This document shows positions 13,024 to 35,068 of a stretch of 35,068 nt of DNA, piece after piece. Below the pieces are notes generated by a model. The model made no database searches. It saw only the letters and a list, made by a program, of their open reading frames with translations, and had not been told where the DNA came from. The stretch comes from a virus. The stretch lies in the IMG/VR virus record IMGVR_UViG_3300031687_000053, positions 1 through 35,068 of that record; one strand, given 5' to 3'. How positions within the stretch are numbered: the stretch's first letter is position 1; the number at the start of each line of letters is the position of its first letter. The translations under genes were made by a program, and so were the position numbers.

Positions 13024-13024
13024 C

Positions 13025-13680: not shown

Positions 13681-13944
13681 ATGAAACAACTTCAAATATC
13701 TACATACATAGAAGATTGCTTGGATTGGCATCTAGATGAATTGTTGCTTGAGTTCGACGGCATTATAGAATCAATTATTTATGGTGACGCGCCTAGCAAT
13801 ATGGCTAAGAATGAGCTTGAGCTATGGAGGCACAAAGTTATTATAAAACTTGATGAAATCGCTGACGATGCTTCAGCTCAACTTGAGGCAAAACTACGCA
13901 TAGAAGAAACAATAATCAATAACACTTTTGGAACCGAATCATGA
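13681..13944 (+). CDS. Small acidic protein heading the modification operon
   Basis: 87 residues, strong GGGGG ribosome site. Acidic and helical throughout (ECxx-free; segments YIEDCLDWHLDELLLEFDGI and KVIIKLDEIADDASAQLEAK). No DNA-binding motif visible. The TGA overlaps the ATG of the ParB-like gene. Being first in a run of overlapping modification genes, it could be a partner or regulator of that system, but I recognise no family. Confidence 0.65.
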   Translation: MKQLQISTYIEDCLDWHLDELLLEFDGIIESIIYGDAPSNMAKNELELWRHKVIIKLDEIADDASAQLEAKLRIEETIINNTFGTES

Positions 13945-16659: not shown

Positions 16660-17135
16660 ATATATTGTTGATAGGCGCGTGTGGTTCAGGCAAAACGTGG
16701 GTTATGAAAAGCCTCATTAAAGAACACAAGCTAAATACCCCCGCAAAGGTAGGGATGATTAAGTTTAGGACTAACAAAACTATATCAGTGCTAGGCGTAT
16801 ATGACGGAACGGTATTTGAGGGCAGTGACAAACTTTCTATGGCTGTGATGCGTGATTGTCAGATGTGGGAAGACGTTAGGAAAGAGCATAAAATGATAGG
16901 CGTTTGTGAGGGGGATAGGTTTACAAACAAAACTTTTATCGACACCTGCAAACCTTATATCATAAGAATCACTGATGACGGTCAAGAAGGCAGAGAGAAA
17001 CGCCAATCTAGTCAGTCTGAAAGGCACATAAAAGCAATACAAACTAGAGTCAATAACATAACGCCAGATATAGAAGTTGCTAACAGCAAAGAGGCGCTTG
17101 AAGGAATACAAAGGATTATAACGTGGAAACAATAG
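16656..17135 (+). CDS. P-loop kinase, 5-hydroxymethyl-dU DNA kinase type
   Basis: 159 residues. Walker A GACGSGKTW (Gly7-Thr14) is at the very start. Typical further features of the phage 5-hmdU DNA kinases are VYDGTVFEGSDKLSMAVMRD (substrate/Walker B side), CEGDRFTNKTFI, and a C-terminal basic stretch with EKRQSSQSERHIKAIQTRVN. These enzymes phosphorylate the hydroxymethyl group of 5-hmU in DNA with ATP or GTP, making it a leaving group for later substitution. ATG overlaps the helical-domain gene's stop, and its own end overlaps the dioxygenase gene by 13 bp. Kinase call firm; base specificity from family and neighbours. Confidence 0.82.
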   Translation: MNILLIGACGSGKTWVMKSLIKEHKLNTPAKVGMIKFRTNKTISVLGVYDGTVFEGSDKLSMAVMRDCQMWEDVRKEHKMIGVCEGDRFTNKTFIDTCKPYIIRITDDGQEGREKRQSSQSERHIKAIQTRVNNITPDIEVANSKEALEGIQRIITWKQ

Positions 17136-17926
17136 ATCTAGTCAAGGTTGAGCACAGCCGAAAGATAGGAGAGGTGTGTGAATTCATAGAGCCGAATGTC
17201 ACTAAATCTTGCTATTTAAGAGACGGAGATGAAATAGTTGGGGTGTATTTAGAGGATGCTTCTGAAATGTTCCCTAAACTATCTCAACTAATGGCTATAG
17301 CGAACAAAGAGTTCCTGTCAGATAACGTACCAAAGGCGCTACTCAAACGCGCTGACGTAATACAAAGACGATGGGCAGGAGCAACCAGCAAAGAAGCACT
17401 GGCGGCAGGAACGGTTCAATACAGCACAATCATTGGTAGCGTACCTAAAAGAAAGCTAATGAGGCGCGATTATCACAATAGGAGCAGTGTTCACGCTGTT
17501 AAATCAGCTCAGACGTTCATTAAAGCAATGCTTATGGCTTCTACAGAGATTGATAGCGCAATGCACCAGTTATTGCCGGAACACCGTAAGGCGCATAAAG
17601 AGGCTGTTTCAGGAGTAGATGACGAATGGATGTTTGGAGAGCTTTTTACGAGCAGTATTAGCAATTTTAATATATCTGCGCCATTCCATAGAGATCGGGC
17701 TAATATAAAGCAAACTTTAAACGCGATATACACTCACAGGCATAACTCAGAAGGGGGCTGTTTATACGTCCCTGATTATGATGCTTGTTTCAGCATGCCT
17801 AGCGGTAGCCTTTTGTTCTATCCTGCTTGGAGAAACGTGCATGCAGTAACGCCAATAAAGCCAATACATAAGGGTGGCTATCGTAATAGTTTAGTGTTCT
17901 ACGCAATCGGAGCGTTTTTATCGTGA
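17123..17926 (+). CDS. TET/JBP-family 2-oxoglutarate/Fe(II) DNA base dioxygenase
   Basis: 267 residues, GTG start with AAGGA upstream. The double-stranded beta-helix is C-terminal: FNISAPFHRDRANIKQTLNA gives the HxD iron ligands (His189, Asp191), GGCLYVPDYDACFSMPSGSL a core strand pair, FYPAWRNVHAVTPI the distal iron His240, and GYRNSLVFYAI the 2-oxoglutarate Arg254. The order and spacing fit phage TET/JBP enzymes, which hydroxylate the methyl of 5-methylcytosine or thymine in DNA. No cytosine methylase gene is visible, which favours thymine or a host-made 5mC. It supplies the hydroxymethyl that the kinase coded just before would act on. Its stop overlaps the terminase start (GTGA). Confidence 0.87.
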   Translation: METIDLVKVEHSRKIGEVCEFIEPNVTKSCYLRDGDEIVGVYLEDASEMFPKLSQLMAIANKEFLSDNVPKALLKRADVIQRRWAGATSKEALAAGTVQYSTIIGSVPKRKLMRRDYHNRSSVHAVKSAQTFIKAMLMASTEIDSAMHQLLPEHRKAHKEAVSGVDDEWMFGELFTSSISNFNISAPFHRDRANIKQTLNAIYTHRHNSEGGCLYVPDYDACFSMPSGSLLFYPAWRNVHAVTPIKPIHKGGYRNSLVFYAIGAFLS

Positions 17927-18303
17927 AAAAAGGAAATCAAGGCGAGGGCGGTGGACGTCCTGAAAAGACATTAAGGGCTGATGAAGTAATACAGCTAGAG
18001 GCGCTATCTGCGTATCTTACTAAAAGCCAAATAGCTGATTATTTCTCTATATCTGAAAATACTCTAAGAGCTATCGAAGAGCGTCAACCGGAAGTTTTTG
18101 AGGCTTATAAAAGGGGGAGGGTTCGAGCATTCGCAGGAATGGGTCAAAACCTAATACAATTAGCTAAAGCCGGTAACGTATCAGCGAATATATTTTACTT
18201 AAAGACGCAAGCAGGATGGAAAGAAGAAGCTCCTGAAGTGCAAGATATTCCCGCAATTAACATAGTGATTGACAGCAATGCAATTAACGCTACCGCAGAG
18301 TAA
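17923..18303 (+). CDS. terS: Terminase small subunit
   Basis: 126 residues, GTG start overlapping the dioxygenase stop. N-terminal GNQGEGGGRPEKT and a HTH (LSAYLTKSQIADYFSISENT) are typical of small terminases, followed by a helical oligomerisation section (VRAFAGMGQNLIQLAKAGNV, then FYLKTQAGWKE). It recognises the packaging site and loads the large subunit, coded next with a 26-bp overlap. Being coupled to the modification operon, packaging protein would be made with the modifying enzymes. Recognition site not identified. Confidence 0.85.
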   Translation: MKKGNQGEGGGRPEKTLRADEVIQLEALSAYLTKSQIADYFSISENTLRAIEERQPEVFEAYKRGRVRAFAGMGQNLIQLAKAGNVSANIFYLKTQAGWKEEAPEVQDIPAINIVIDSNAINATAE

Positions 18304-19489
18304 GATATTTATATCTTCGTCACGATTCCGAGTATGTGTCGCAGGTAGGCGATTCGGTAAGACGTTCCTTTCTACAGGAGAGATATTAAAGGCCGCAATA
18401 GGTGCTAAGAATAGGAATTGTTGGTATGTTGCGCCCACGTATGGGGCGGCTAAAGAAATAGCATGGGATATGTTAATTCATACTATCCCTCAAGAATACA
18501 TAGCAAAGACTAACGAAAGCACGCTTACTCTAAGGCTGATTAACGGCTCAGTCATATCGCTTAAAGGAGCAGAGAAGCCAAATAACCTTAGAGGAAGAGC
18601 GTTAGATTTTGTTGTGTTAGATGAGTTTGCTGACATGAAACCGGAAGCATGGTATGAGGTAATCAGGCCAAGTTTGAGTGACCGTCAGGGTTCAGCTGTC
18701 TTCATTGGTACGCCTAAAGGAAGGAATCACTTCTATGACCTGTGGGCTAAAGGCATGGATGGAGCAGACGATTGGGAAAGTTTTCAGTACACAACGCTTG
18801 AGGGGGGTAACGTACCTCACTCTGAAATAGAGGCCGCTAGATCAGACCTTGATGACCGCACGTTTAACCAAGAATATTGCGCGGAGTTCGTAACCTACTC
18901 AGGGTTAATCTATTATGGGTTCAGTAGAGATGAGTCTGTATTGGATATGCCTGATGTTAATGGTACACTCCACATTGGTATGGATTTTAACCTTGATCCC
19001 ATGTCTGCCGTTATCTGCCTACGTAAAGGCGAGAAGCTGTATGCCGTTGACGAGATAGTCATGTATGGATCGAACACAGATGAGATGGTTGAAGAGATAA
19101 AGACTAGATACCCTAATCGTCCTATTATTATTTATCCAGACCCTGCATCACGGCAACGCAAAACAAGTGCCGGTGGTCGAACAGATTTGTCGATCCTACA
19201 GAACGCGGGTTTCATGGTGAAAGCCAAGAACACTCATGCTCTGGTTAGAGATAGAATAAACGCAGTGAACAGCCGGTTGCTGTCAGGTAGTAAGCAACGA
19301 CATTTGTTTGTTAGCCCTAAGTGTAAGCATACGATTAAGAGCTTAGAGAGGCAAACATATAAAGAGGGTACAAGCGTACCTAATAAAGATGGTTTTGACC
19401 ATATGAATGACGCGCTTGGCTATTTAGTAGAATACCTATTCCCTGTGAAAACTGAATACGACACACCACAACCAATCAGGTGGACTTGA
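18278..19489 (+). CDS. terL: Terminase large subunit (ATPase and nuclease)
   Basis: 403 residues from ATG 18278; a TTG nine bases earlier is unlikely. ATPase: Walker A AGRRFGKT (22-29), Walker B FVVLDEFAD (Asp115-Glu116), coupling motif VFIGTPKGRNHFYDLW. RNase-H-like nuclease: HIGMDFNLDP (Asp236), IIYPDPAS (Asp288), FDHMNDALGYL (Asp374/Asp378). All key residues of both activities are intact. It pumps DNA into the prohead and cuts it. The gene ends in a TGATG overlap with the portal. Confidence 0.95.
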   Translation: MQLTLPQSKIFISSSRFRVCVAGRRFGKTFLSTGEILKAAIGAKNRNCWYVAPTYGAAKEIAWDMLIHTIPQEYIAKTNESTLTLRLINGSVISLKGAEKPNNLRGRALDFVVLDEFADMKPEAWYEVIRPSLSDRQGSAVFIGTPKGRNHFYDLWAKGMDGADDWESFQYTTLEGGNVPHSEIEAARSDLDDRTFNQEYCAEFVTYSGLIYYGFSRDESVLDMPDVNGTLHIGMDFNLDPMSAVICLRKGEKLYAVDEIVMYGSNTDEMVEEIKTRYPNRPIIIYPDPASRQRKTSAGGRTDLSILQNAGFMVKAKNTHALVRDRINAVNSRLLSGSKQRHLFVSPKCKHTIKSLERQTYKEGTSVPNKDGFDHMNDALGYLVEYLFPVKTEYDTPQPIRWT

Positions 19490-20889
19490 TGGACTTTGAC
19501 GCAGAGCTAACGCACCCGCAATATGACAAACATTTAACCCGATGGGAGTTCTATTTGCGCTCATATATGGGTGGACAAGATTACATCGACGGTCGATATT
19601 TAACCCGTTATATAAAAGAATCCGATGAAGATTATGACAGAAGGCTTGAGCTTACACCTTTAGATAATCACTGTAAAAACATCGTACACATATACAGCAG
19701 TTTCTTATGGCGCGTACCACCTACTAGAGTGTTTAACTCTTTGACAGATAACGTAGCCCTTGAACCTTTCTTAAATGACTGCGACCTTGACGGAAGAAGT
19801 TTTAATGCGTTTATGCGTGAGGCTCAAGTTTGGTCTAGCGTATATGGTCACGTATGGTTAATGATGGATAAGCCTAAATCGAATGCCGGAACTAAGGCTG
19901 AAGAAATGGCTCAAGAAATCAGACCGTACATGACGATGTTCACACCAGAGAATGTTGCTGATTGGCGGTATGAGCGCACCCCAAGCGGTCGATTTGAGCT
20001 TGCATACCTTAAGGTTATAGAATCTGTTATCGAGCTTGACGATATGGAGGAAGAGGTATATTACAGGGTATGGGATAAAGAATTTATCTCTTTGTGGCAA
20101 GTGTCTGACGGTAAATCTACGCTACTTGAGCAAGAGATTAATCCGTTAGGAGCAATTCCTGCGGTTTTCCTTCCGGCTAATAGGTCGGTCGAAAGGGGGG
20201 TAGGTATAAGCGATTTATCTGATGCGGCTTATATGCAAAAAGCTGTCTATCAGGAGCTATCTGAAATTGAACAGTTGATAAGAATATCTAACCATCCTAC
20301 GTTAGTTAAGACTCACGCAACAGACGCAAGCGCGGGAGCCGGTTCAGTCATTAATATGCCTGATGATATGGATGCTTCATTAAAGCCGTTTCAGATGCAA
20401 CCAAGTGGCGCTAATCTTGACGCTGTACGCAACGCTATTACCGATAAAGTTGAATCGATTAACCGTATGAGTCACATGGGAGCAGTACGCGGCACTCAGG
20501 CTATTACTCAATCGGGCGTAGCCATGCAGACAGAATTTCAAATGCTGAACGCTAAACTGTCAGAGAAAGCAGATATCCTTGAGCTTACAGAAGAGCAACT
20601 TTGGGGTTTATTCTGCGAGTGGCAAGAAATAACGCCAGACGTTGAAGTGTTTTATCCTGATGCGTTTGATCTAAGGGATTACGATAAAGAGCTTACTTTC
20701 TTACAGCAATTAAGGTCTAGTGGGGTGCAATCCATCACGTTAGCGCAAGAGATTGATAAGAAGATAAGCGATCTAATCCTCGATGACGAATTGCTTGCTA
20801 AGGCGCACTTGGAAATAGAGGCTACGACACAAACCCTTGGTCAGTTTGATGATGAAGCAGACGCTGACGAAGAAACAGTTGAAGTCTAA
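19489..20889 (+). CDS. Portal protein
   Basis: 466 residues from ATG 19489 (TGATG overlap with the terminase; a GTG 9 bases earlier is less likely). The N-terminal part with YLTRYIKESDEDYDRRLELT, NIVHIYSSFLWRVPPTR and then a long helical/beta body with MSHMGAVRGTQAITQSGVAM and EEQLWGLFCEWQEITPD fits phage portals, close in style to the DUF4055 group. Gene order (after terminase, before head morphogenesis) also says portal. It forms the ring through which DNA enters and the tail attaches. The C-terminal tail is very acidic. Confidence 0.85.
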   Translation: MDFDAELTHPQYDKHLTRWEFYLRSYMGGQDYIDGRYLTRYIKESDEDYDRRLELTPLDNHCKNIVHIYSSFLWRVPPTRVFNSLTDNVALEPFLNDCDLDGRSFNAFMREAQVWSSVYGHVWLMMDKPKSNAGTKAEEMAQEIRPYMTMFTPENVADWRYERTPSGRFELAYLKVIESVIELDDMEEEVYYRVWDKEFISLWQVSDGKSTLLEQEINPLGAIPAVFLPANRSVERGVGISDLSDAAYMQKAVYQELSEIEQLIRISNHPTLVKTHATDASAGAGSVINMPDDMDASLKPFQMQPSGANLDAVRNAITDKVESINRMSHMGAVRGTQAITQSGVAMQTEFQMLNAKLSEKADILELTEEQLWGLFCEWQEITPDVEVFYPDAFDLRDYDKELTFLQQLRSSGVQSITLAQEIDKKISDLILDDELLAKAHLEIEATTQTLGQFDDEADADEETVEV

Positions 20890-21635
20890 TGGCGGCTGAC
20901 ATAGATCAGCTAAAGAAGCTTGTTGCTCTTGCAGAGACACATCAGGCAAAACTGGCGAAAGCTCTAATTGAGCTTGAAAAGAACATTGCAACCATCATGG
21001 CGTCTGCTCCCCTGAAGGATGGTAGGCTGTTTGATTTGCAGTGGGCTATACAGGCTAGGGTAGTTTTAAGGCAAGCGATTGAAAAAGATTATCTTGTAGC
21101 TATTGATAAGATTATTCGTGAATACAAAGGTGTGGCGGCTAACGCTTTAAGCATGTTGAGCCAATACACTGAGTTTGCTAAATTAGACCCTGCTGTAATC
21201 AGGCAGTTGCAGAGCTTGAGCTTTAAAGGTTTTGAAGATATTGGTCAGCAATACTTAGATGTAATATCTAAAGAGGTATACAACAACACGCTGACAGGCG
21301 TTTCTTTTGCTGAAAGCGTTGCTGTGATTAAAGCTACTATCGACACTGGACTGAAGAAATACGCTAGTCAAGGGTTGCATGACTCCTTAATGCAGTTCGA
21401 CGCTACAATTAATACAAAAATGGCGATTGATGCAGGGGCAAAGACGTTCAAGTATCAAGGACCAGATGATTCAGCGACAAGGCCGTTCTGCGAAAAGCAC
21501 GTAGGAAAGGTTTATACTAAAGAAGAGATTGAAGAAATATGGAACAGCGATACGTGGGCGGGAAAGATCAGCGGTAATCCGTTCGTTGTAAGGGGCGGTT
21601 ATAATTGCCGTCATAGGTTTAGAGGTCAATTTTAA
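20889..21635 (+). CDS. Head morphogenesis protein (SPP1 gp7 / Mu gpF-like)
   Basis: 248 residues. The C-terminal fifth holds the family motif: FKYQGPDDSATRPFCEKHVG, then YTKEEIEEIW and RGGYNCRHRFRGQF, with the Cys/His pattern of the SPP1 gp7 domain. The N-terminal ~180 residues are helical. The protein is a minor head component found next to portal genes, with a role in DNA ejection or prohead assembly. Shares one base with the portal stop (TAATG). Family call is firm. Confidence 0.85.
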   Translation: MAADIDQLKKLVALAETHQAKLAKALIELEKNIATIMASAPLKDGRLFDLQWAIQARVVLRQAIEKDYLVAIDKIIREYKGVAANALSMLSQYTEFAKLDPAVIRQLQSLSFKGFEDIGQQYLDVISKEVYNNTLTGVSFAESVAVIKATIDTGLKKYASQGLHDSLMQFDATINTKMAIDAGAKTFKYQGPDDSATRPFCEKHVGKVYTKEEIEEIWNSDTWAGKISGNPFVVRGGYNCRHRFRGQF

Positions 21636-21646
21636 GAGGAAGCATC

Positions 21647-21706
21647 ATGCCAAAAGGTATCGGATACGGTAAAAAGAAGAAAAAGAAGAAAAAGTCTAAG
21701 AAGTAA
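21647..21706 (+). CDS. 19-residue lysine-rich peptide
   Basis: Reads MPKGIGYGKKKKKKKKSKK with a very good AAGAGGAAG ribosome site eight bases before the ATG. Eleven of 19 residues are Lys. Similar short Lys-rich proteins occur between portal and scaffold genes of other phages as far as I know. It could neutralise DNA or sit on the prohead interior. The strong RBS and clean stop support real translation. Confidence 0.65.
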   Translation: MPKGIGYGKKKKKKKKSKK

Positions 21707-21758
21707 GCAATTATGATACACTGACAATTAACTAACTACTCTTTATGAGGCACGCGAC

Positions 21759-22427
21759 ATGAGCGAAGAAACCATGGGAACAGAAGCTGAGACTGAAACA
21801 GCGGCAATACAAACACAGGAAAAGACGTTTTCACAAGACGAATTAGACAGAATCGTTGCTGATAGAATAGCAAGAGAACAGCGCAAGTTTGAAAAAAAGG
21901 TAGCCGGTATCGATTTAGATGACGCCAGAGACCTAATTGAAAAGCGAGAAGCGGCTGAAATCGAGCGTCAGAAAGAGCGAGGCGAGTTTGATAGCATCTT
22001 AAAGAAGACTGTCGAAAAGAAGGATTTGGAAATACAAGCGTACAAAGGCAAGCTACAGCAAACCCTAGTTGATGGGGCTTTAGTAAATGCGGCAAGCCAA
22101 AACAACGCAGTCAATCCAGATCAAGTGTCAATGTTGCTAAAATCTTTCACTAGGCTGTCTGATGACGGTACAGTTGAAGTGCTTGATGGTAGTGGTTCAC
22201 CTCGATACAATGATAAAGGTGATCTGTTTTCTGTCAACGAGATGGTAACTGAGTTTTTAACAGGGAATCCGCATCATGTTCGCGCCTCACAAGGCGGGTC
22301 TGGATCGCAGGGTAAAACTGGTGGCATTAACGATGTGTCGGGTAAAACCAAAAGTCGTGCAGAATTTGAACAACTTAACCCACTAAAGCGTTCTGAATTT
22401 ATCAGAGGCGGTGGCACAATCACATAA
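21759..22427 (+). CDS. Capsid scaffolding protein
   Basis: 222 residues, acidic and Gln-rich N-terminus (ETETAAIQTQEKTFSQDELD), then a coiled coil (RIAREQRKFEKKVAGIDLDD, LIEKREAAEIERQKERGEFD) and a Gly/Ser-rich C-terminus with a basic NPLKRSEFIRGGGTIT end. This low-complexity, helical build directly before the coat gene is typical of scaffold. No protease gene is present, so it probably leaves whole, as in P22. GAGG ribosome site upstream. Confidence 0.85.
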   Translation: MSEETMGTEAETETAAIQTQEKTFSQDELDRIVADRIAREQRKFEKKVAGIDLDDARDLIEKREAAEIERQKERGEFDSILKKTVEKKDLEIQAYKGKLQQTLVDGALVNAASQNNAVNPDQVSMLLKSFTRLSDDGTVEVLDGSGSPRYNDKGDLFSVNEMVTEFLTGNPHHVRASQGGSGSQGKTGGINDVSGKTKSRAEFEQLNPLKRSEFIRGGGTIT

Positions 22428-22445
22428 TTTTAAGGATTATATAAA

Positions 22446-23600
22446 ATGGCTAACAACATCGCGCAATTAATGCCCGACATTTATGAAGCACTAGATATAG
22501 TTTCACGCGAACTTACTGGAATGATTCCGGCTGTAACAATGAACAGCTCCGCAGAGCGCGCAGGTCTAAACCAAAAGATCCGCGTTGACGTTGAACCCGC
22601 AGGAAACGTGTCTGACATTACTCCTGCTATGACAATTCCAAACCCTACTGACCAGACTTCAGGGTCAACCGATATTGTAATCACTAAATCTCGTGCGGCT
22701 GAGTTTGGATTTATTGGTGACGAGCAGAAGATTCTTGACACTGGCATCGGATACGGAAACGTAAGAGCAAACAAGATCGCTCAAGCTATTCGTTCTGTAA
22801 CCAATGAAGTAGAAATCGATCTGTGTGCCTTGCAAGCGTCTTTCTCTCGTGCGGCAGGTGCTTCTGGTACAACTCCGTTTGGAACAGCGGGAAACTATAC
22901 TGACGCTTCTAACGCGCTGAAGATTCTTAAAGATAACGGTGCTCCTTTAACTGACAACCAACTTGTCATTAATACTACAGCGGGCGTTAATCTTCTTGGC
23001 TTACAAGCTAATGTTGATGCGGCAGGTAGTGCTTCAATCTTGCGTCAAGGTGTATTGTTAGATATTAACGGAATGCCTATTCGTGAATCAGCTCAGATTG
23101 TTGACCAAGCGGCTCAAGCTCAAACCGGCTGTACAGTTACAGGCGCAGAAGCTATTGGCTCAACTTCTATCGGTGTTACTGTCGCAGGTGGTGGAGCTTT
23201 CTCTGCTGATGCAGGTGATATCCTTACTTTCGCAGATGATTCTCGTAAGTATGTTGTAGCTACAGCCGTTGATATTGCGGGAGGAGCAACTGGAACAGTA
23301 GTTATTGCGGCTCCAGGATTGCAACAAGCTCAAAGTGCTACTAAAGCTATAGCGGGAGATGCCGCAGGTTCTAGAAACATGGCGTTTAATCGCTCTGCTC
23401 TAGTGTTGGCGGCTCGTGCTCCTGCGCGTCCGTCTGAAGGCGATATGGCTGAAGATGTGATCGTTATTACTGATCCGCGTTCTGGTCTAAGCATGGAATT
23501 TGCCATGTATAAAGGCTATCGCAAAGTGCGTTATGAAGTTGGTCTAGCTTGGGGTGTTAAAAACATCAAGCCAGAGCATACAGCCCTTTTACTTGGGTAA
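22446..23600 (+). CDS. Major capsid protein, P22-coat-like
   Basis: 384 residues. MANNIAQLMPDIYEALDIVS at the front and the late MAFNRSALVLAARAPARP, with FAMYKGYRKVRYEVGLAWGV near the end, are typical of the P22 gp5 branch of HK97-fold coat proteins. Residues ~225-305 form a Gly/Ala/Thr-rich beta insertion (GSTSIGVTVAGGGAFSADAG) at about the place where P22 coat carries its I-domain. No N-terminal pro-domain to cleave is obvious. Followed by a hairpin terminator. Confidence 0.88.
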   Translation: MANNIAQLMPDIYEALDIVSRELTGMIPAVTMNSSAERAGLNQKIRVDVEPAGNVSDITPAMTIPNPTDQTSGSTDIVITKSRAAEFGFIGDEQKILDTGIGYGNVRANKIAQAIRSVTNEVEIDLCALQASFSRAAGASGTTPFGTAGNYTDASNALKILKDNGAPLTDNQLVINTTAGVNLLGLQANVDAAGSASILRQGVLLDINGMPIRESAQIVDQAAQAQTGCTVTGAEAIGSTSIGVTVAGGGAFSADAGDILTFADDSRKYVVATAVDIAGGATGTVVIAAPGLQQAQSATKAIAGDAAGSRNMAFNRSALVLAARAPARPSEGDMAEDVIVITDPRSGLSMEFAMYKGYRKVRYEVGLAWGVKNIKPEHTALLLG

Positions 23601-23608
23601 TTGAAACT

Positions 23609-23638
23609 AGCCTCATCCTTTCGGGGGTGGGGCTTTTT
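23609..23638 (+). terminator. Hairpin terminator/attenuator after the coat gene
   Basis: Ten-pair stem AGCCTCATCC (23609-23618) with GGGTGGGGCT (23625-23634), including two G:T pairs, loop of six, then TTTT. It ends just before the connector gene, and since no promoter is seen after it, partial read-through would lower tail expression relative to coat. Confidence 0.78.
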
Positions 23639-23651
23639 AATTGAGGTTAAT

Positions 23652-24074
23652 ATGGCATTTTCGTCTGACGCTGATTTAGTAAAATTAGTCCCTGACATAT
23701 TACAGTTAGGTATTACTTCATTTAGTAATGAGCACCCAAAAGCACAGGCTGATATTGAACGCGATTTGCGGATTAAGTGGTGGCCTCGAAAGCGCAGATC
23801 CGGTGACACTGAAGAAATGGATAACAACAAGCTTACGGATGCGCAATTTACACAAGCGGCATCTTTCCTTGTTTTATGGATGTATGTTTTACCAAAGCTA
23901 ACTAATTGGGTCGATAATGACCGATTTTTAGAAATGATTGATTTTTATAAGGCTAGATATGGCGAAGAAATGGAAGCTGTATATGGCGATGGTATTGAAT
24001 ATGATCTGGACGGTGATGGAACGGTCACGGATTTAGAGAAAGAGTTTATTGGCGTTAATAGGTTAAACCGATAA
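23652..24074 (+). CDS. Head-tail connector with C-terminal EF-hand loop
   Basis: 140 residues from ATG 23652 (GAGG upstream). The helical body (LVKLVPDILQLGITSFSNEH, FLVLWMYVLPKLTNWV) and position right after the coat gene fit head-tail adaptors of the gp6/gp15 kind. The C-terminal segment has DLDGDGTVTDLE (118-129), a perfect 12-residue calcium-binding EF/dockerin loop (Asp1, 3, 5, Gly6, Val8, Glu12). Function of a Ca site here is unknown; it could stabilise the joint in calcium-rich water. Family by position, EF loop seen directly. Confidence 0.7.
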   Translation: MAFSSDADLVKLVPDILQLGITSFSNEHPKAQADIERDLRIKWWPRKRRSGDTEEMDNNKLTDAQFTQAASFLVLWMYVLPKLTNWVDNDRFLEMIDFYKARYGEEMEAVYGDGIEYDLDGDGTVTDLEKEFIGVNRLNR

Positions 24075-24496
24075 TGTTAATTAAAATGACTACAAATTTC
24101 GATTCTATTGCGAAGATTGTAGGAAAGAGAGGAAAACAGCTAAAGGCAAGTACCAAGCTCGCTCTCTTAAGAACCGGATTAGCCGGTGTAAATATGATAG
24201 AAGATAGGACGGCAAAGGGTCGTAGCTTCAAAGGCTCTATGTTTAAAAAGTATAACGCGCAATATGCCGCGTTTAGATCGTCTAGAGGTAGAGGAACAAA
24301 GCCAAACCTTGAGTTTACAGGGCGAATGTTAGGCAGTATGAGCGTTGTATCTAACCACAAAGAAGCGGAAATTTTCTTTACAAGAGGAACAGAGGCAAAA
24401 AAGGCCGCAATGAACAATGAAAAAAGGCCGTTCTTTGGGTTTAGTAGAAATGAAAGAAAGAAATTAGTATCAGTTTTTGAAAGGAATTTGAAATGA
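24074..24496 (+). CDS. Tail-completion / virion morphogenesis protein
   Basis: 140 residues, basic. GRSFKGSMFKKYNAQYAAFR and PNLEFTGRMLGSMSV are typical of phage virion morphogenesis proteins (Mu gpG-like / HK97 gp10-like), a small protein that closes the head-to-tail joint. Start overlaps the previous stop by one base (TAATG); ATG 24086 is an alternative. Followed by an overlapping tail terminator gene, the usual order. Confidence 0.72.
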   Translation: MLIKMTTNFDSIAKIVGKRGKQLKASTKLALLRTGLAGVNMIEDRTAKGRSFKGSMFKKYNAQYAAFRSSRGRGTKPNLEFTGRMLGSMSVVSNHKEAEIFFTRGTEAKKAAMNNEKRPFFGFSRNERKKLVSVFERNLK

Positions 24497-24927
24497 GTGT
24501 TAGAGAAAGCATTGCAAACAACATCGTTTCGACGCTTCAGCAGATAACTTCTCCTGTCGCGATAAAGTATGTTACAAGAGAACCTTTCGATTTTAACAAG
24601 CTATCAAACGCTCAATATCCTGCTATTCTAGTAAGAAGCGCAGACGAAACAAGAGAAGACAGTTCGATCGGTGGAGCATTAACTCAGAGAATGGGCACGA
24701 TCAATTATGAGCTAATTTGTTTTGTTAAAGGCGCGTTAATAGATCAAGCAAGAAACAACATTATTGAAGCTATTGAAGAGGGGCTTGACGTTGACAGAGG
24801 TAGGGGTAATTCAGCCCTTGATACTCAGGTTGTCGGTGTTGAGATTGACGAAGGTTCTATTGACCCCATTGGTGGGGTTATTATTACAGTTCGCGTTGTG
24901 TATCAATATACTCGCGGAACAACTTAA
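24493..24927 (+). CDS. Tail terminator (minor tail gpU-like)
   Basis: 144 residues. N-terminal helix RESIANNIVSTLQQI, then a beta sheet with YELICFVKGALID and a C-terminal VIITVRVVYQYTRGTT, the alpha/beta layout of tail terminators. It caps the tail tube and binds the connector. ATG overlaps the previous TGA. Identified mainly by order (before tail tube) and fold pattern. Confidence 0.72.
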   Translation: MSVRESIANNIVSTLQQITSPVAIKYVTREPFDFNKLSNAQYPAILVRSADETREDSSIGGALTQRMGTINYELICFVKGALIDQARNNIIEAIEEGLDVDRGRGNSALDTQVVGVEIDEGSIDPIGGVIITVRVVYQYTRGTT

Positions 24928-24950
24928 CTTAAACATAAGGTAGATAAATC

Positions 24951-25352
24951 ATGGCGACTAAAACAGGCGCATCAGGTGTAGTAAAAATGCAAGTATCGGG
25001 TACGACAGTCGCGGTGGTTGGCGCAGTTCGTTCATTTACTTTTGAAGGTTCAGCAGACACTATTGAAGACTCTGTAATGGGTACGGTTGTTCGTACTTAC
25101 AAGCAAGGCTTAAAAACTAACACTGTATCACTAGATGTATACTGGGATGAGGCTGATGCACAGCAACTAATCCTAGATGAAGGTACGGATATTGATTTCG
25201 AAGTATATCCAACTGGTGCCGGATCTGGCGAGACATTCTTTACTGGTGGCGGTATAGTAACAAGCAGATCAATCACTGGCGCGTTTGACGGTATGGTAGA
25301 AGCTAGTTTTACTATCCAGTGTTCCGGAGCCGTTGTCGAAGCTCAAGTATAA
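24951..25352 (+). CDS. Major tail tube protein
   Basis: 133 residues, almost all beta. GASGVVKMQVSGTTVAVVGA, FTFEGSADTIEDSVMGT, and the C-terminal GAFDGMVEASFTIQCSG fit the siphovirus tail tube fold. RBS AAGG upstream; stands alone between terminator and chaperone genes as expected. It stacks as hexamers around the tape measure. Confidence 0.87.
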   Translation: MATKTGASGVVKMQVSGTTVAVVGAVRSFTFEGSADTIEDSVMGTVVRTYKQGLKTNTVSLDVYWDEADAQQLILDEGTDIDFEVYPTGAGSGETFFTGGGIVTSRSITGAFDGMVEASFTIQCSGAVVEAQV

Positions 25353-25369
25353 TAAAGGGGAATTAAACC

Positions 25370-25717
25370 ATGGGATTAGCTAAAGAGTTAAGAAACAGAA
25401 GAACAGTAGAGTCTAGAGAAGTTTTAGTCCCTGCGTGGGGTGATGAAACTGGAGCGTTTAAGATGTATTGTAGAAGCATTACTTGCTACGATTTAGACGT
25501 ATTACAGAAGAAGCACCCTAATTTTTTGCAAAACACCACTATTGGTGCAATGGTTGATTTGATTGTAATGAAAGCAATCGACGAGAATGATCAGAAGTTA
25601 TTTAATTCTGGTGAAGATCGTATGGATTTGATGGGCGAAGAAACAAACGTCATATCAGAGATTGCTAATCAAATGTTCAGTGACATTGAATCGGTGGAGG
25701 CACACGAAAAAAACTAA
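25370..25717 (+). CDS. Tail assembly chaperone, short form (gpG-like)
   Basis: 115 residues. Helical with MGLAKELRNRRTVESREVLV and ITCYDLDVLQKKHPNFLQ; size and place between tail tube and tape measure match lambda gpG. The last sense codons GAA AAA AAC and the TAA stop form a frameshift site (see next entry). RBS AAAGGGGA. It binds the tape measure during tail assembly and is not in the final virion. Confidence 0.85.
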   Translation: MGLAKELRNRRTVESREVLVPAWGDETGAFKMYCRSITCYDLDVLQKKHPNFLQNTTIGAMVDLIVMKAIDENDQKLFNSGEDRMDLMGEETNVISEIANQMFSDIESVEAHEKN

Positions 25718-25854
25718 AAAGCGATCACTCAAGGATGACAATGTTGTCTTTGGCTGATCGCTTGCACATGAGCATAGAAGAGGCAGAGCAAACGCCTATC
25801 ACTCACTTAAACGAGTGGGTTGCCTATCATAAATTATCTGGTAAAAGTGAATGA
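25370..25854 (+). CDS. Tail assembly chaperone, frameshift form (gpGT-like)
   Basis: A -1 shift at the slippery heptamer A AAA AAC (25708-25714) reads past the TAA to give a 161-residue fusion. The 46 extra residues include SLADRLHMSIEEAEQ and LNEWVAYHKLSGKSE; the EWxxY pattern is the classic ending of T-domain proteins. Six bases after the heptamer a stem GCGATCA (25721-25727) pairs with TGATCGC (25755-25761), a good stimulator. The stop TGA overlaps the tape measure ATG. No separate start serves this frame. Confidence 0.85.
25708..25761 (+). promoter_or_regulatory. Programmed -1 frameshift signal
   Basis: Slippery A AAA AAC at 25708-25714, spacer TAAAAA, then a perfect 7-pair stem (25721-25727 with 25755-25761) whose loop can form a second small stem GACA/TGTC. 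All the parts expected for lambda G/GT-type recoding are present. Confidence 0.85.
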
Positions 25855-27695
25855 TGAAACCTATTGTAATAGCAATCGCGGGACTAGATAATACTGAGGC
25901 AATGTTTGCTAAAGTAAAAGCCAATTTTGCTAAAGTCACTAAAGCCGTTGACAAGCTAAAAAACCGATTCCCTAATTTATCAGCCGCCGCATCTAAAGCG
26001 TTTAATGGTTTAAAAACCGCTATCTCTGGTTTGGCAAAAATGGCGGCAGGGTTTGCCCTTGCTTTTGGTGCGGCATTCCTTGCTATAACCATTAAAACGA
26101 TGAAATCAATCGATTCGCTTGGAAAAATGGCATCGAAGATTGGTACAACCGCAGGGTCACTCTCTAAGCTTCAGTTTGCCGCAGAGCAAACAGGCGTATC
26201 TGCTGAGACGATGGGTATGGCAATGCAACGCTTTACTCGTAGGGCGGCAGAGGCGGCTAGAGGGACAGGCGAAGCTAAAGGCGCGTTAAAAGAGCTGAAT
26301 ATAAATGCCAAAGAACTGCTTAAAATGCCTTTGGAAGATCAGGTGCTTGCTTTATCTAAAGCGTTTGAAAGCGTAGAAACCCCTGCTGATAAAGTTCGAC
26401 TTGCAATGAAGCTGTTCGACTCTGAAGGTGTTGCCCTTGTAAATACGTTGGGTGCAGGGTCGGAAGGTTTGAAAGCAATGTTTAAAGACGCAGAAATGCT
26501 TGGTCTTGTGCTTTCTGAGGACGCTGTAAACGGTGTAGAAGCGGCTAATGATTCAATGAATCGCTTAAAGAAGTTGTTTGTTGGGTTTAGCCGTCAAGCC
26601 GTTGCCGCATTCGCTCCCGCAATAGATCAAATTTCTCAATCATTAGTTGATTTAGGATTAAAAGCGGCTGACGGTGATGTGCAAAACATTGGCGAAGTTA
26701 TTGCAAAATCTATTGTTGGCGGTCTGGTTTCTGTTCTTCAAGTTATACAGCAGATGATGAATGCGTTTGGTGAAATGGCACATGAAATTAGGCAAATATA
26801 CAGAAACTTTTTTCCAACAGATGAAATGGAGGCTGATAAAAAAGCCTTAAACGATTTGTTTAGAACACCGATCGAAGACATTAATCTATTTTCAGATGAT
26901 CAAGCCGCACAATTTGAAGCTGAAATCGCGGCACTACAAAACAAGATTGCAGGTACAGAAGGAAAGTTTATACCTTTCGATTTTTCAGCATTAATTGCAG
27001 AATTGTTAAAAGTAAAAGACACTATTGGTGTAGTCGGTGACGCAGTTAAACCAGTAATCGATGAAATTACTTCATTAGGCGAAAGAAATTGGTTTGATAA
27101 ATTAACATCTAGCGCATTAGATTTTAAAGATAAAGTTGGCGATGCTTTTGGAAAAGTAAAAGACAATGTTTTTGATTTTGACAAGTCAATGGAAGGTTTG
27201 GTCACAGGCTCGATTGATGCGATGACTCAAGGGTTTACTGACATGATTACCGGAGCAAAAAGTTTCGGTACAGCAATGAAAGATATGGCTAAAACTGTCG
27301 TTGACGCTTTGCTTAAAATGTTTATTCAATACATGATTGTTCAGCCTTTATTCGACATGATGTTTCCTGGCGCTAGACCTGTAAGTACTCCGGCTCTTCC
27401 AAAGGCATTAGGTGGCCCAGTGCAAAACAGTCAACCTTATCTTGTAGGAGAGCGTGGTCCTGAGTTGTTCGTACCTAACGCGGGTGGCAACATCATCCCC
27501 AACAATAAGATGGGTGGCGGTGGTGGTGGCGGTGTAACTGTTAATCAAACTATTAACGTAACGACAGGCATACAATCCACTGTAAGGGCTGAGATAGTTC
27601 AGCTAATGCCTCAGATAGCTAATGCCGCTAAAGGTGCTGTTGCTGATGCACGATTGCGCGGTGGTAATTTCTCTAAAGCAATGGGAGGCGCATAA
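25851..27695 (+). CDS. Tail tape measure protein
   Basis: 614 residues. Long helical protein with hydrophobic stretches near the front (GLAKMAAGFALAFGAAFLAI) and middle, and a lambda gpH-like C-terminal part: MTQGFTDMITGAKSFGTAMK, GERGPELFVPNAGGNIIPN and a Gly run followed by VTVNQTINVTT. It sets tail length; at the usual ~0.15 nm per residue the tail would be about 90 nm (inference). ATG overlaps the chaperone stop. Confidence 0.93.
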   Translation: MMKPIVIAIAGLDNTEAMFAKVKANFAKVTKAVDKLKNRFPNLSAAASKAFNGLKTAISGLAKMAAGFALAFGAAFLAITIKTMKSIDSLGKMASKIGTTAGSLSKLQFAAEQTGVSAETMGMAMQRFTRRAAEAARGTGEAKGALKELNINAKELLKMPLEDQVLALSKAFESVETPADKVRLAMKLFDSEGVALVNTLGAGSEGLKAMFKDAEMLGLVLSEDAVNGVEAANDSMNRLKKLFVGFSRQAVAAFAPAIDQISQSLVDLGLKAADGDVQNIGEVIAKSIVGGLVSVLQVIQQMMNAFGEMAHEIRQIYRNFFPTDEMEADKKALNDLFRTPIEDINLFSDDQAAQFEAEIAALQNKIAGTEGKFIPFDFSALIAELLKVKDTIGVVGDAVKPVIDEITSLGERNWFDKLTSSALDFKDKVGDAFGKVKDNVFDFDKSMEGLVTGSIDAMTQGFTDMITGAKSFGTAMKDMAKTVVDALLKMFIQYMIVQPLFDMMFPGARPVSTPALPKALGGPVQNSQPYLVGERGPELFVPNAGGNIIPNNKMGGGGGGGVTVNQTINVTTGIQSTVRAEIVQLMPQIANAAKGAVADARLRGGNFSKAMGGA

Positions 27696-29508: not shown

Positions 29509-32500
29509 ATGGCAATTACGTTAATAGCAGGGTTGGCGGCCGCAGGTTCAGCTTGGGCGGCCGCAGGATTCGCGTTAAGTTTAGGCGCGGCATTTGGAGC
29601 GTTTGCTATTGGCGCAGGTTTATCTTTAGTGTCTCGCGCATTAATGCCGAAGCCTGATCTGGGCGCTCAAATGGGCGGTCAATCTGTAATGACTAGAGAA
29701 GCGGCTAGTTCTCGTAAGATTGTTTATGGTCGTGCGCGTATAGGCGGCAATGTTGTTTACCTAGAATCAACTGGTTCTGATAATAAATATCTTTATCTAG
29801 TCATGGCGGTTGCAGGACATGAAATCGATGCCTATGAGGAAGTTTGGTTTAACGACAAAAAAGTATGGGATGGTGGCGTTTATCAATCTGGATGGGCAAC
29901 TGCAGGAAACTCAAGCACTTCACCTTATGTAGATATACAGTTTTATAAAGGCGATCAAACTGCCGCAGACAGTGGATTGGTTGCCGCATCTAACAAGTGG
30001 ACAACCGATCACAAGCTACTTGATACAGCCTATATGGTTATTAGGCTGACGCATGACGTTGACCAATTCGCTCAAGGTCTTCCAAATATATCTACTCTTA
30101 TTCGCGGTAAAAAGGTTCTGAACCCCGATGGGGGCGCTGTTGCATGGTCGCAAAACCCTGCTCTTTGTATTTACGATTATTTGCGAGATACTAAATATGG
30201 TCTAGGCGAAGAAGTTGCTAACATTTTAACGGCTTCTGTAAATACCGCAAAAGCAGTTTGTGATGAAAGCGTGCCTATTTCAGGCGGCAATCAACCTAGA
30301 TATACTATAGATGGAGTAGTTAATTCGGCTAACTCTATAAAATCCAATATAGAATTAATGATTGGCTCAATGGCGGGGCGGTTAGTTTATTCTGGAGGCA
30401 AGTTTGAAGTTCATGCGGGTGAATATGTTGCTCCTGCATATACTGTCGATGAATCTCAAATTATTGGCGAGATTACCGTTCAGACTAAACAGTCCAGACG
30501 GAACGCTTATAATGGCGTGAAAGGGGTTTTTCTTTCAGAAGAGGATAACTACATTCTCGCAGACTACCCTGCCCAAATATCATCTAGCTTTGCTTTACAA
30601 GATGGAGACCCAATATATCTTGATATGGCGCTACCGTTTACTACAAACAATATACGCGCTCAGAGGCTTGCTAAACTCGCTCTGTTCCGTTCTAGGCAAC
30701 AAGAAGCCATAACCATACCATGCAACCTAAGTGCGCTTAGATTTAAGATAGGCGACAATATCAACGTCACCAATACAAGACTTGGTTATAATCAAAAAAT
30801 CTTTGAAGTCGTTGGTTATTCAATGGACTTCCGTTCAGACGGTCAAATTTTAGTCAATGTTGATGCAATAGAAACAGCCGCGTCTATCTGGGCTTGGCAA
30901 GCATCTGATCAAGAAGTGTTTTTAGGCGCGGGAGAAGTCGCTTTATATACTGGAACGGTAGCTACACCACCTGCGACAGTTGCAGTTTCTGGCGATACAT
31001 TTATTGCCTCTGACGGCACAACTAGTTCGTTTTTTAACGTAACTTGGCCTACCTCTGTTGACGCTTTTGTTGATAGATATGTTGTTGAATGGGCTGTAAC
31101 TGAAGCCGCAGGTTCGCTTGTAGTTGGTAAAAGCTATGAGATTCTAACAAAAGGTAATACTGCTTGGACAGGTATTGGCGCATCGTCAAACACTAATGGC
31201 GTTATATTTATAGCAACTGGTGTTGGAGCAGGAACAGGCATAGCAGTAAGAAGCGATAACTATTCATCGCAAGAAACAAGATTATCACCATTTATAATTA
31301 CTAATGTTGAAAGTTTAAAAGTTTATTATGTAAAAGTTAAGGCAATTAATGAGCTTGGCGTTTCAAGCGTATATAAAGCCGCACAACAAACAGCCGCGAT
31401 TGATACAACGCCTCCTAGTGTTCCCACTAATCCTTTAGCGAAAGGCGAATACCGACAGATTACGGTGTCATGGACTCCACCAACACAAACAGATTTGCTA
31501 GGTGTTGAGGTATTTAGATCTCCCACCGGACTAGTTAATAGCTTTTTCTATGTAGGTAGTGGCGACACTTCATTTATTGACACTGATTTAGATACTCCTA
31601 GAGAGTATTTTTACAGAATAAGATCGTATGATCGGACGTTTAATAAATCAGATTACGCGGCTATTGTTAGCGCAACATCTAAAAACGTCAATATTACAGC
31701 GCCCGATAATCCTAACGTAACCATATACGATGGTGAGTCTGGGTTAGCTCCCTCAATCACAAGTGCTAGAGCAACGGTTGATACAAACACAAGTACGTTT
31801 TATCTAAAGCAAGATTACAAAGAATCGTTAAAGCTCCACCTGTCTTATCCAGTAGGGGCATTAACATCTGGTTCTGTATCAGGTCAGACTAATGCCATTA
31901 ACTCAACAATGGCAGCTTTTAAATTCCAAGTCTTTTATGCACCGACGAGCAACGCATCTAACTTTACACAACTAGGCGCAGATATAATTTCTGTTAGAAG
32001 AACAACGACAGGCCAATTAATTAGCAATTACTTTGTTAAAACAACTGATTTAGGCAGTGGAAACTTTAGGGCTGATTTACAGACTCAATCTCAAGTGCAA
32101 GGCTTGTTTAACAGTTTGGATGGTTCTAGTTTAGGCATTATTGATGATAACTATAACCTAAGAGAAACCCTAGTCGCTTATGATTTCCCTGCCGGTGAAT
32201 ACGTTTTTAAGGTTGTTGTTACAGTCACTAATGGTTCGGCATCAAGCTACCCATCAACCGGTAGTCCAGCGGCTACCTTAAAAAGATCGGTTGATGCTGT
32301 TGGCTATGAGCAATTCAAAAAAACTGGGTTTACCTTTGCCTTAAAGCCGTTGTATCAGCCAATAACCATTTTTAGAGAAGCAGGAAGCAATGAAATAGTC
32401 AGGCTGAGTGAGGGCGCAGACACTCTTGAGCTTTCGGCAATTAACAGCAGTGGCGTTCCTGTTCAAGCGTTTATTGGTGGAGGCGGTTCATCTGCAACAT

Positions 32501-35068
32501 CTTGGGGTGCAAGAATACAGTTTGATGATGATTTAGATACATATACCAACGGTGGTATTGGTCAATATCAGATAGGCATAAACAAATCAGGAAGTCATTT
32601 ATCTTTAGGCACAGCACCTAGTGGCGGTGGATACCCAAGAGGATTAAATCCAAGTCTTTCAGAGTTAAGAATATCTAGTGGTAGAACCGATATTAAAGGC
32701 TCGTTGTATCTGAATGGCGTAGCCGTAGGCACTGGCTCGGGAAGCATCTCTAATGTAATAGCAGGGACTAATCTAAACGGTGGAGGCACTAGCGGAGCAG
32801 TAACTCTAAACCTTGATAGCACTATTTCGGGCGAACATACGTTTAGCAGTAATTTAATTATTGGCGGCAACCTTACTGTAAACGGCACAACCACAACCGT
32901 TGATACTGATAATCTAAACGTCAAAGATAAGAACATTACGTTAAATTATTCTACTGGTAATTCATCATCTACTGCTAACGGTGCAGGAATAACCATTCAG
33001 GACGCGGTTGATGCTTCAAATAACGCTACTATTTTATGGAACACCACTGGCGATAAGTTTGATTTCAGCCACAAAGTAAATGCGCCTAGCCTTAATGTAG
33101 GTGGAAACATTGCCGTAACTGGAACCGTAGATGGGGTAGATATAGCCTCAAGAAATTCAGTCTTAACGACTACAACCAACACAGCTAATGCCGCATTGCC
33201 TAAATCGGGTGGAACGATGACAGGTAACCTTGATGTAGGTGGAGCTATAGAATTTAACTCTTTATCTGGAACTGGCTCAATATCTATTACTGACATACTA
33301 GACCAAGATAATATGTCTAGTAACAGCGCGACAGCACTGGCAACTCAGCAATCAATTAAAGCCTATGTTCTTGCAAACATAAATACAGGCTCATTTTTGC
33401 CTCTTAGTGGTGGGTCGCTTACAGGCACTCTTTCCAGTAATAGCAATATTGAAACTACCCTTGATATGAAAGCTAGGATACTTTATAGCAAGGTAACTAA
33501 TAACAGTTATCTTGATCTTAATTCATCTAACAATGTCGGTCTAAACGCATCTGGCGCTGTTAATCTTACGGTTGGCGGTGCAACAAAGTTTCAAGCTAGG
33601 TCTACTGGTGCGCTTGTCTACGCAGGTAGTTTGATGATGGGTAGCAACGCTACTGTAGTTATTGATGCTAGTAGGAACCTAACCAACATCGGCACTATCT
33701 CTAGCGGTGCTATTACTTCATCAGGTGGAGTATCTGGAACAACTGCAACATTTACTAACTCTGTAACATTAAGCGGTTCAGGCATTGTTAATATCACCAA
33801 AGGTTTAGGCTTATATGTTTCAGCTAATTTAAGTGTTAGTGGACTCATTTTTAAGAATGGAGGTGGTGATGTTGAGGTATCAGGTAATCTAAGAATCAAC
33901 TCTGGTGGTTTGAAAATAGGAACCACCACAGTAATAGATGCTAGTAGAAACCTGACCAACATCGGCACAATAGCCATTGGAACGGCTAGCCCTCAAAATT
34001 CAGCTAAAGTAGACATATTTAGCTCAGTGACAAGTGGACATTTTAATGGTCTACAGATTAGGAGACCTAACTCTTCTGGAATTACTTCCGCTATGCAGTT
34101 CACTTTGGCTAACAACATAATGGTTGGGAAAATACAACATGATTATGTAGCGAGCAATCACAATGATATGTCTTTCCATCTTAGGCTGTCAGGCGGTGGC
34201 AACCAAGAAGTTATGCGATTTTACGCAGGGCCAATTAATGGGACGCGAGTCGGTATAGGCACAACACAACCAGAAGAAAAGCTAACCGTAAGCGGAAACA
34301 TTAGGGCGTCTGGGTCTTATTTAGTTGGCGGCACCACAGTAATAAATGCTAGTAGAGCCTTAACCAACATCGCTTCATACAACGGTTACCTTCCTACAGC
34401 ATCATCTTCATCAACTAACAGTGTAGTAAGTCTGGACAGCCGATCAGTAAATAGTAGCCCCTCTGCAAGAAACAGTGGCTTGTATGTGGATTTTAAGAAT
34501 CAATCTACTATTGGCTTAACTGGAAGTGGAACTTATGCTGGGGTATTAACCTTTAGAGCGTATGGTGGCGGTACGGATTTGTCAGGTGGCTATCCAATAC
34601 AAATAGCTTACGATCACGCAGGTTCATTGCAAACAAGAATTGGTTCAAGCGCGACAGCGTGGAATGCTTGGAAAGCCATCCATGTAGCAGGAAATAATTT
34701 AACGGCAGGCACTATCTCTAGTGGTGCTATTACAAGTACAGGGATTATAAAATCAGATAATTCCAATGGGCTTGGTTCTTTACAGCTTAATTCTAACGGA
34801 AACAAAGCCATTGTTGGTTTAGAGCCGTCTGTAGGTGGAGGCTCTGTTAATGATTTAAGTATTTACTCACGTTCGGGAGCTGTGCGATTTTGGGCGAGTG
34901 GCGTTCAGAAAATGACATTGACTTCATCGGGTTTAAATTTAGTTAATGGTCTTCTTATTGGCGGCACTACAGTAATATCCGCTAGTAGAAATATAACTAT
35001 GGGGTCTAGTTTAACTGTCGCGGCTGATGGTGGTAGTAACTACACATCAAACCACATTAGATTTATGT
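29509..35068 (+). CDS. Tail tip protein (lambda J-like) fused to repeat fibre, 5' part; ends at window edge
   Basis: Starts at ATG 29509 (TAAGG 8 bases upstream) and stays open to the end; with 1-1709 it gives 2271 codons. N-terminal Ala/Gly hydrophobic segment (residues ~1-46), then J-type tip with ASSRKIVYGRARIGGNVVYL and VWFNDKKVWDGG. Two fibronectin III domains follow (~30960-31400, split by a beta module, and ~31399-31690). From ~32700 a fibre of repeats: LPKSGGTMTGNLDVGG and copies of DASRNLTNI at 33661, 33921, 34340 and 34970. The C-terminus is the S74 chaperone at the window start. It attaches to the tape measure at one end and binds the host at the other. Ends in the second fibre allele. 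Confidence 0.92.
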   Translation, partial: MAITLIAGLAAAGSAWAAAGFALSLGAAFGAFAIGAGLSLVSRALMPKPDLGAQMGGQSVMTREAASSRKIVYGRARIGGNVVYLESTGSDNKYLYLVMAVAGHEIDAYEEVWFNDKKVWDGGVYQSGWATAGNSSTSPYVDIQFYKGDQTAADSGLVAASNKWTTDHKLLDTAYMVIRLTHDVDQFAQGLPNISTLIRGKKVLNPDGGAVAWSQNPALCIYDYLRDTKYGLGEEVANILTASVNTAKAVCDESVPISGGNQPRYTIDGVVNSANSIKSNIELMIGSMAGRLVYSGGKFEVHAGEYVAPAYTVDESQIIGEITVQTKQSRRNAYNGVKGVFLSEEDNYILADYPAQISSSFALQDGDPIYLDMALPFTTNNIRAQRLAKLALFRSRQQEAITIPCNLSALRFKIGDNINVTNTRLGYNQKIFEVVGYSMDFRSDGQILVNVDAIETAASIWAWQASDQEVFLGAGEVALYTGTVATPPATVAVSGDTFIASDGTTSSFFNVTWPTSVDAFVDRYVVEWAVTEAAGSLVVGKSYEILTKGNTAWTGIGASSNTNGVIFIATGVGAGTGIAVRSDNYSSQETRLSPFIITNVESLKVYYVKVKAINELGVSSVYKAAQQTAAIDTTPPSVPTNPLAKGEYRQITVSWTPPTQTDLLGVEVFRSPTGLVNSFFYVGSGDTSFIDTDLDTPREYFYRIRSYDRTFNKSDYAAIVSATSKNVNITAPDNPNVTIYDGESGLAPSITSARATVDTNTSTFYLKQDYKESLKLHLSYPVGALTSGSVSGQTNAINSTMAAFKFQVFYAPTSNASNFTQLGADIISVRRTTTGQLISNYFVKTTDLGSGNFRADLQTQSQVQGLFNSLDGSSLGIIDDNYNLRETLVAYDFPAGEYVFKVVVTVTNGSASSYPSTGSPAATLKRSVDAVGYEQFKKTGFTFALKPLYQPITIFREAGSNEIVRLSEGADTLELSAINSSGVPVQAFIGGGGSSATSWGARIQFDDDLDTYTNGGIGQYQIGINKSGSHLSLGTAPSGGGYPRGLNPSLSELRISSGRTDIKGSLYLNGVAVGTGSGSISNVIAGTNLNGGGTSGAVTLNLDSTISGEHTFSSNLIIGGNLTVNGTTTTVDTDNLNVKDKNITLNYSTGNSSSTANGAGITIQDAVDASNNATILWNTTGDKFDFSHKVNAPSLNVGGNIAVTGTVDGVDIASRNSVLTTTTNTANAALPKSGGTMTGNLDVGGAIEFNSLSGTGSISITDILDQDNMSSNSATALATQQSIKAYVLANINTGSFLPLSGGSLTGTLSSNSNIETTLDMKARILYSKVTNNSYLDLNSSNNVGLNASGAVNLTVGGATKFQARSTGALVYAGSLMMGSNATVVIDASRNLTNIGTISSGAITSSGGVSGTTATFTNSVTLSGSGIVNITKGLGLYVSANLSVSGLIFKNGGGDVEVSGNLRINSGGLKIGTTTVIDASRNLTNIGTIAIGTASPQNSAKVDIFSSVTSGHFNGLQIRRPNSSGITSAMQFTLANNIMVGKIQHDYVASNHNDMSFHLRLSGGGNQEVMRFYAGPINGTRVGIGTTQPEEKLTVSGNIRASGSYLVGGTTVINASRALTNIASYNGYLPTASSSSTNSVVSLDSRSVNSSPSARNSGLYVDFKNQSTIGLTGSGTYAGVLTFRAYGGGTDLSGGYPIQIAYDHAGSLQTRIGSSATAWNAWKAIHVAGNNLTAGTISSGAITSTGIIKSDNSNGLGSLQLNSNGNKAIVGLEPSVGGGSVNDLSIYSRSGAVRFWASGVQKMTLTSSGLNLVNGLLIGGTTVISASRNITMGSSLTVAADGGSNYTSNHIRFM
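31117..31245 (+). other. Beta module inserted into a fibronectin III domain of the tail tip
   Basis: SYEILTKGNTAWTGIGASSN and then FIATGVGAGTGIA interrupt the FN3 domain between RYVVEWAV and YYVKVKAINELG. The same pattern (Y-I-x3-G-x-T-x2-T-IGASxNT-G-x-F-ATG-x-G) is inserted in the hub protein at ~28345-28500. Confidence 0.75.
33655..34380. repeat. Fibre repeat phrases (DASRNLTNI / GTISSGAIT)
   Basis: Short DNA and protein repeats: IDASRNLTNI with GTISSGAIT at 33661-33723, TTVIDASRNLTNIGT at 33921-33970, and TTVINASRALTNI at 34330-34373. Further copies at 34961, 349 and 940, and GTISSGAIT at 91/34706. They give 20-50 bp of homology between modules, a ready substrate for swapping. Confidence 0.8.
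34616..34742. repeat. Terminal overlap block A, second copy
   Basis: Identical to 1-127. The sequence upstream of it (GYPIQIAYDHAGSLQ) reads smoothly into the block, so this copy has the true left flank. Confidence 0.95.
34743..34956. other. Fibre variable cassette, allele Y (214 bp)
   Basis: Encodes NSNGLGSLQLNSNGNKAIVG, then SIYSRSGAVRFWASGVQKM, unrelated to allele X but of the same beta style. Flanked by blocks identical to those around allele X, same frame. Confidence 0.85.
34957..35068. repeat. Terminal overlap block B, second copy
   Basis: Identical to 345-456 and runs to the window edge, so the right flank of allele Y beyond this is not seen here. Confidence 0.95.

Follow-up and report, generated by a model that had tools for sequence, protein, structure and literature searches.

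The record very probably holds a complete circular genome of 34,615 bp followed by an over-run into the branch of a second strain, with two segments, x and y, as alternative cassettes of one slot in the tail-fibre gene J. The window analyzed here is the whole 35,068-nt stretch of the IMG/VR record, whose two ends fail to match as a plain terminal repeat. Each end instead contains the same pair of flanks, A and B, around a different segment.

Anatomy of the contig ends

The features at the ends of the window, obtained by comparing one end with the other and by matching the reading frames to protein families, are as follows.

1 to 127, + strand: flank A, contig-start copy, identical to 34616-34742
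128 to 344, + strand: cassette x, 217 nt, NITTTGSAITVDPASGDAILSLQ...TNGDFK, the version assigned to the closed ring
345 to 456, + strand: flank B, ring copy, identical to 34957-35068
34616 to 34742, + strand: flank A, contig-end copy, 127 nt, read as the ring-closing overlap of the assembler and of a length common among ring overlaps in the collection
34743 to 34956, + strand: cassette y, 214 nt, IIKSDNSNGLGSLQL...LVNGLL, the version assigned to the over-run branch
34957 to 35068, + strand: flank B after y, 112 nt, not long enough for the branch to merge again if k = 127
29509 to 35067, + strand: open frame of the 5' part of J, with 1853 N-terminal codons in the assembled form, cut off by the contig end
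3 to 1709, + strand: open frame of the 3' part of J, which resumes at the contig start and has an S74 chaperone at its end
1404 to 1589, + strand: S74 intramolecular chaperone domain at the fibre end (PF13884, residues 468-529 of P0002)

An earlier note on this DNA had described shared ends of 127 and 112 bp around unrelated segments of 217 and 214 bp, and sequence comparison confirmed this exactly. The match across flank A is maximal on its right side, and the match across flank B is limited only by the contig end. A 127-mer match has a chance expectation of about 1e-66, which excludes coincidence, and the next longest exact direct repeat in the window is 32 nt, leaving no other of the size of A or B. 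BLAST detected no similarity between x and y or between either one and any other part of the window. The sole match between small x and y profiles in hhalign was their common right flank, and the AlphaFold2 models (pLDDT of 78 for x, with beta strands, and 61 for y) are too weak for comparing folds.

The gene interrupted by the contig ends encodes a very long lambda J-like tail-tip protein that terminates in an S74 chaperone. Its N-terminus matches PHROG 5616 (tail fiber, 2.7e-86) and phrog_31 (central tail fiber J, 3.7e-59), and its C-terminus matches PF13884 (Peptidase_S74, 2.5e-10). When J is joined across the contig ends the frame is stop-free with either cassette and encodes 2271 aa when it contains x and 2270 aa when it contains y, in agreement with the earlier claim that both alleles keep the frame and differ by one codon. 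Homologous J frames closed by a stop codon in relatives range from 846 to 3231 aa, which marks the C-terminal part as extremely variable.

Tail-fibre genes are common targets of programmed switches, and x and y could in principle be the two states of an invertible segment or the products of a diversity-generating retroelement; the flanks could also be true physical terminal repeats. These explanations are extremely improbable. A search of the 35,068-nt window found x and y once each and neither of them in inverted form, and reverse transcriptase and invertase families are absent among the proteins scanned. Neither a template/variable repeat pair nor a third copy was detected, and x and y are unrelated whereas a retroelement would give mutated copies. 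Physical terminal repeats are at odds with a contig that ends in the middle of a gene, and in the relative G008 the ends fall at another position in J.

Probable ring closure and over-run branch

The ring would consist of bases 1-34615, closed by the assembler through the 127-nt overlap at 34616-34742. After closure, the contig would continue for 326 nt (34743-35068) into the branch of another strain, on which y would stand in place of x. We infer that x is the ring form and y the branch form, and y is probably the rarer of the two. If the graph was built with k = 127, a common value, a branch that shares 127 bases again would merge, and a shared tail of fewer than 127 bases is therefore expected. 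The tail of the window is 112 bases long.

A set of 122 Gokushovirinae contigs, which represent circular genomes from the same collection as the window, served as the control. Clean end overlaps were present in 57 of them, the commonest lengths being 123 nt (11/57) and 127 nt (7/57), and 23/122 over-ran beyond the end overlap, mostly into variants with 90-99% identity. In contigs L368, L224, L186 and L351, an overlap of 126-127 nt precedes one variant base and a shared tail of 11-118 bases, always fewer than 127. Their shape is that of the window with a single base replacing the cassette. Relatives of the present phage behave likewise, G017 over-running into a 97% variant and G015 into a 93% variant, and two others close with an exact 123-nt overlap (G008, inside J, and G016). 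G015 and G017 and, in the Gokushovirinae, L156, L209, L211, L224, L368 and others are rings of this kind, complete and with a strain variant caught at the end.

The genes on the two sides of the joint are also neighbors elsewhere. The J C-terminus is followed across the joint by an 87-aa gene (1737-2000), an order kept in L006, L007, L008 and G008, and the same small genes precede J in G008 and G010. The window therefore shows the features of an over-run: its start recurs as an exact 127-nt overlap near the contig end, the tail beyond this overlap departs from the ring as a variant and then shares sequence with the ring again for less than 127 bases, and the genes flanking the joint adjoin one another in relatives. 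End patterns of this type are an established sign of strain variation in assemblies. The Gokushovirinae controls, the two over-running relatives and the conserved gene order at the joint all support the proposal of the earlier note that the contig went round a circular map and took the other branch. Chen et al. (PMC7111523) report overlaps close to the largest k in length, and a genome that either of two small variants could circularize. Their case one resembles the window in that the ring is closed through a k-sized overlap and the contig stops at a non-unique region for which two variants exist. Their variants are not described as fibre cassettes, whereas the window has a fully replaced in-frame segment with both versions in the contig.

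The same ends would also be produced if A-y-B and A-x-B stood in tandem in one gene, with the A and B repeats collapsed and the middle lying beyond the contig end. Unequal flanks of 127 and 112 nt are the expectation for two exact repeats assembled at a smaller k, and a distant fibre gene, L015:3616-5502, contains two near-identical copies of about 330 nt at a spacing of 1530 nt, with an exact 132-nt stretch and a y-like cassette in each copy. In-gene duplication thus occurs in such proteins, which counts against the ring. A tandem arrangement is nonetheless improbable, because A would equal a common overlap length by coincidence, ends of the same shape are common in single-copy circular genomes, and two stretches would have been duplicated unchanged while the piece between them was wholly replaced. 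Among the close relatives checked, J contains no comparable exact repeat, and no exact repeat in those loci exceeds 35 nt.

A concentration of assembly breaks in J was considered as evidence and dropped. Contigs with a J start end inside J in 38/75 cases, and ends within 2 kb are found in 22/75 of these contigs versus 12/79 of those with a terminase. The excess exists only at that distance; beyond 3 kb terminase contigs end about as often, and the break count was not used for this reason.

A virus record whose ends do not match can conceal a complete ring together with sampled variation from within the population. Scanning existing collections for contigs whose start recurs inside their end and then diverges would yield complete genomes as well as strain variants.

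Linkers and probable cassette exchange in J

Cassettes x and y both lie between TISSGAITSTG on the left and IGGTTVI.ASRN on the right. Both linkers recur in J, and a further cassette lies between copies of them.

34708 to 34733, + strand: left linker TISSGAIT (TISSGAITSTG), also at 33691-33716 (96%) and 1152-1177 (88%)
345 to 384, + strand: right linker IGGTTVI[SDN]ASRN, with variants at 33651, 33924, 34332 and 941
33692 to 33923, + strand: another J cassette, bounded by the two linkers of x and y, 97% identical to L006 over 232 nt with unrelated neighbors

Both cassettes join their flanks at these linkers, at distances of 15-23 nt from where the motifs start. In relatives, J is represented by isolated blocks of 75-97% identity that terminate at linkers, with unrelated sequence between blocks (33416-33707 is 92% identical to L007, and 338-632 is 82% identical to L008). 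The right linker has 80-93% DNA matches in several relatives, where it adjoins unrelated cassettes. Within the linker-bearing part of J, 13 of 22 block edges are 30 nt or less from a linker versus 4.5 expected. The median distance from edge to linker is 23 nt versus 76 nt expected, with a p value of 2e-4 that is a guide only, since the edges are partly non-independent and BLAST alignments are prone to run on through conserved linkers. The closely related pair L306 and L307 illustrates the process too: downstream they agree at 97% over 4.4 kb, but their fibre segments are replaced around a 248-nt block of 97% identity.

The position of block edges in relatives, together with the borders of x and y, makes cassette exchange at repeated linkers in J a well-supported reading of these sequences. 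The earlier suggestion of exchange between repeat phrases on both sides is borne out by the isolated blocks of relatives, which end at the linkers. The fibre would evolve through swaps of cassettes of about 70 residues by homologous recombination at the linkers, and each swap would be expected to alter the host-facing surface.

The linkers also bear on whether y was joined in error from the DNA of another organism. Such a chimera would account for a change confined to one contig end, and amplified viromes contain chimeras. Both joints are in frame and at the linkers that bound cassettes in relatives, and y is homologous to a fibre module; a random chimera would ignore frame and linkers, which leaves an artefact very unlikely.

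A different question is whether the y branch belongs to another phage lineage that shares only this fibre stretch, in which case a transferred module would be present in two viruses. Cassettes do move between different phages, as the 232-nt block in L006 with its unrelated neighbors indicates. Relatives of x alone, at 44-65% aa identity, occur in otherwise unrelated phage fibres, including large ones; the relative of y, at 58% aa identity, is in the L015 fibre, where it occurs twice. The y molecule is, moreover, known only from A onward. Against a second lineage, B is 112/112 identical after y, compared with 75-90% in relatives, which bounds divergence at about 3% and favors the same population. 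The identity of A has less weight, because a fork in the graph requires identity there. A separate lineage is accordingly an unlikely origin of y. L016, a sibling recovered from a different sample, is 99.99% identical over 12670-26905 and stops short of the fibre; its existence means that the virus recurs. The earlier note had proposed looking for more alleles in metagenomes, and such a search met with no success in viral_contigs: no entry has x or y at high identity, and a search for a second contig with x, y or A gave best matches of 65% (x) and 58% (y).

Cassette variation of this type is a known kind of host-recognition variation and a known mode of receptor-binding evolution. The metaviromic or genomic islands of marine phages, as described in PMC6487183 (citing Mizuno et al. 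2014), likewise hold alternative host-recognition content within a population and hamper de Bruijn assembly. The largest islands covered there span kilobases and can hold several genes, whereas the window has a single in-frame cassette of 217/214 nt in one gene. Alteromonas phage fibres (PMC10579305) and E. coli tailspike modules (PMC10408124) are similar in that modular tail proteins exchange their host-binding parts. The exchanges demonstrated there are between named isolates, whereas the window has two forms of one gene in one assembly.

Recombination genes and other features of the window

The window encodes homologs of phage recombination proteins.

6130 to 6816, + strand: Sak-like single-strand annealing protein, a possible driver of exchange (phrog_8492, 7.1e-38)
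6813 to 7412, + strand: RecE-like recombination exonuclease (phrog_149, 2.4e-40; phrog_434, 3e-17)
9542 to 10006, + strand: NinB/Orf recombination mediator (phrog_72, 1.8e-24)
11395 to 11823, + strand: NinG/Rap junction endonuclease (phrog_5034, 7.7e-22)

In other systems, Rad52-like phage recombinases, with orf and rap as accessory functions, promote mosaicism through exchange across short, diverged homology (PMC3945230). The relaxed recombination described for these enzymes (PMC3945230; PMC2327257) is matched here by the Sak-like, RecE-like, Orf/NinB and NinG/Rap homologs and by short diverged homology flanking the cassettes; for the window, gene content suggests such a link. The Sak, RecE, Orf and NinG proteins of the phage itself would carry out the exchange, which is plausible and the less certain step of the mechanism. 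A broader model, put forward tentatively and with some doubt, is that J is a set of ~70-80-residue cassettes between two linkers that act as landing sites for the annealing system of the phage, and that the population continually reshuffles cassettes, including some from unrelated phages, while the gene stays unbroken. Should reads bear out linker-bounded exchange, the family of this phage would lend itself well to measurements of the frequency at which receptor-binding modules are swapped.

Named phages gave no nucleotide match for 10000-34900, and the nearest terminases, at about 55%, are those of Pelagibacter phages. Adjoining the terminase genes, the region 14561-17926 encodes a PLP-enzyme-like protein (PF00291, below the cut-off), a phrog_3271 protein and a Tet/JBP-type oxygenase (PF12851, above the cut-off). 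By its family matches, this cluster looks like a DNA base hypermodification set.

Two intergenic stretches, 5323-5397 and 11832-11906, are 77% identical over 75 nt and have an exact 19-mer, AAACTAAAAGGTTTACTTT, in common. The 19-mer was found nowhere else in the window, where 0.03 occurrences are expected with up to 3 mismatches. Its 15-base core was present in 0/392 fetched loci, and the two stretches had no Rfam match. The pair is possibly a regulatory element. An in-gene repeat is located at 13114-13329, with exact copies of 32 nt (13122/13242) and 24 nt (13114/13306).
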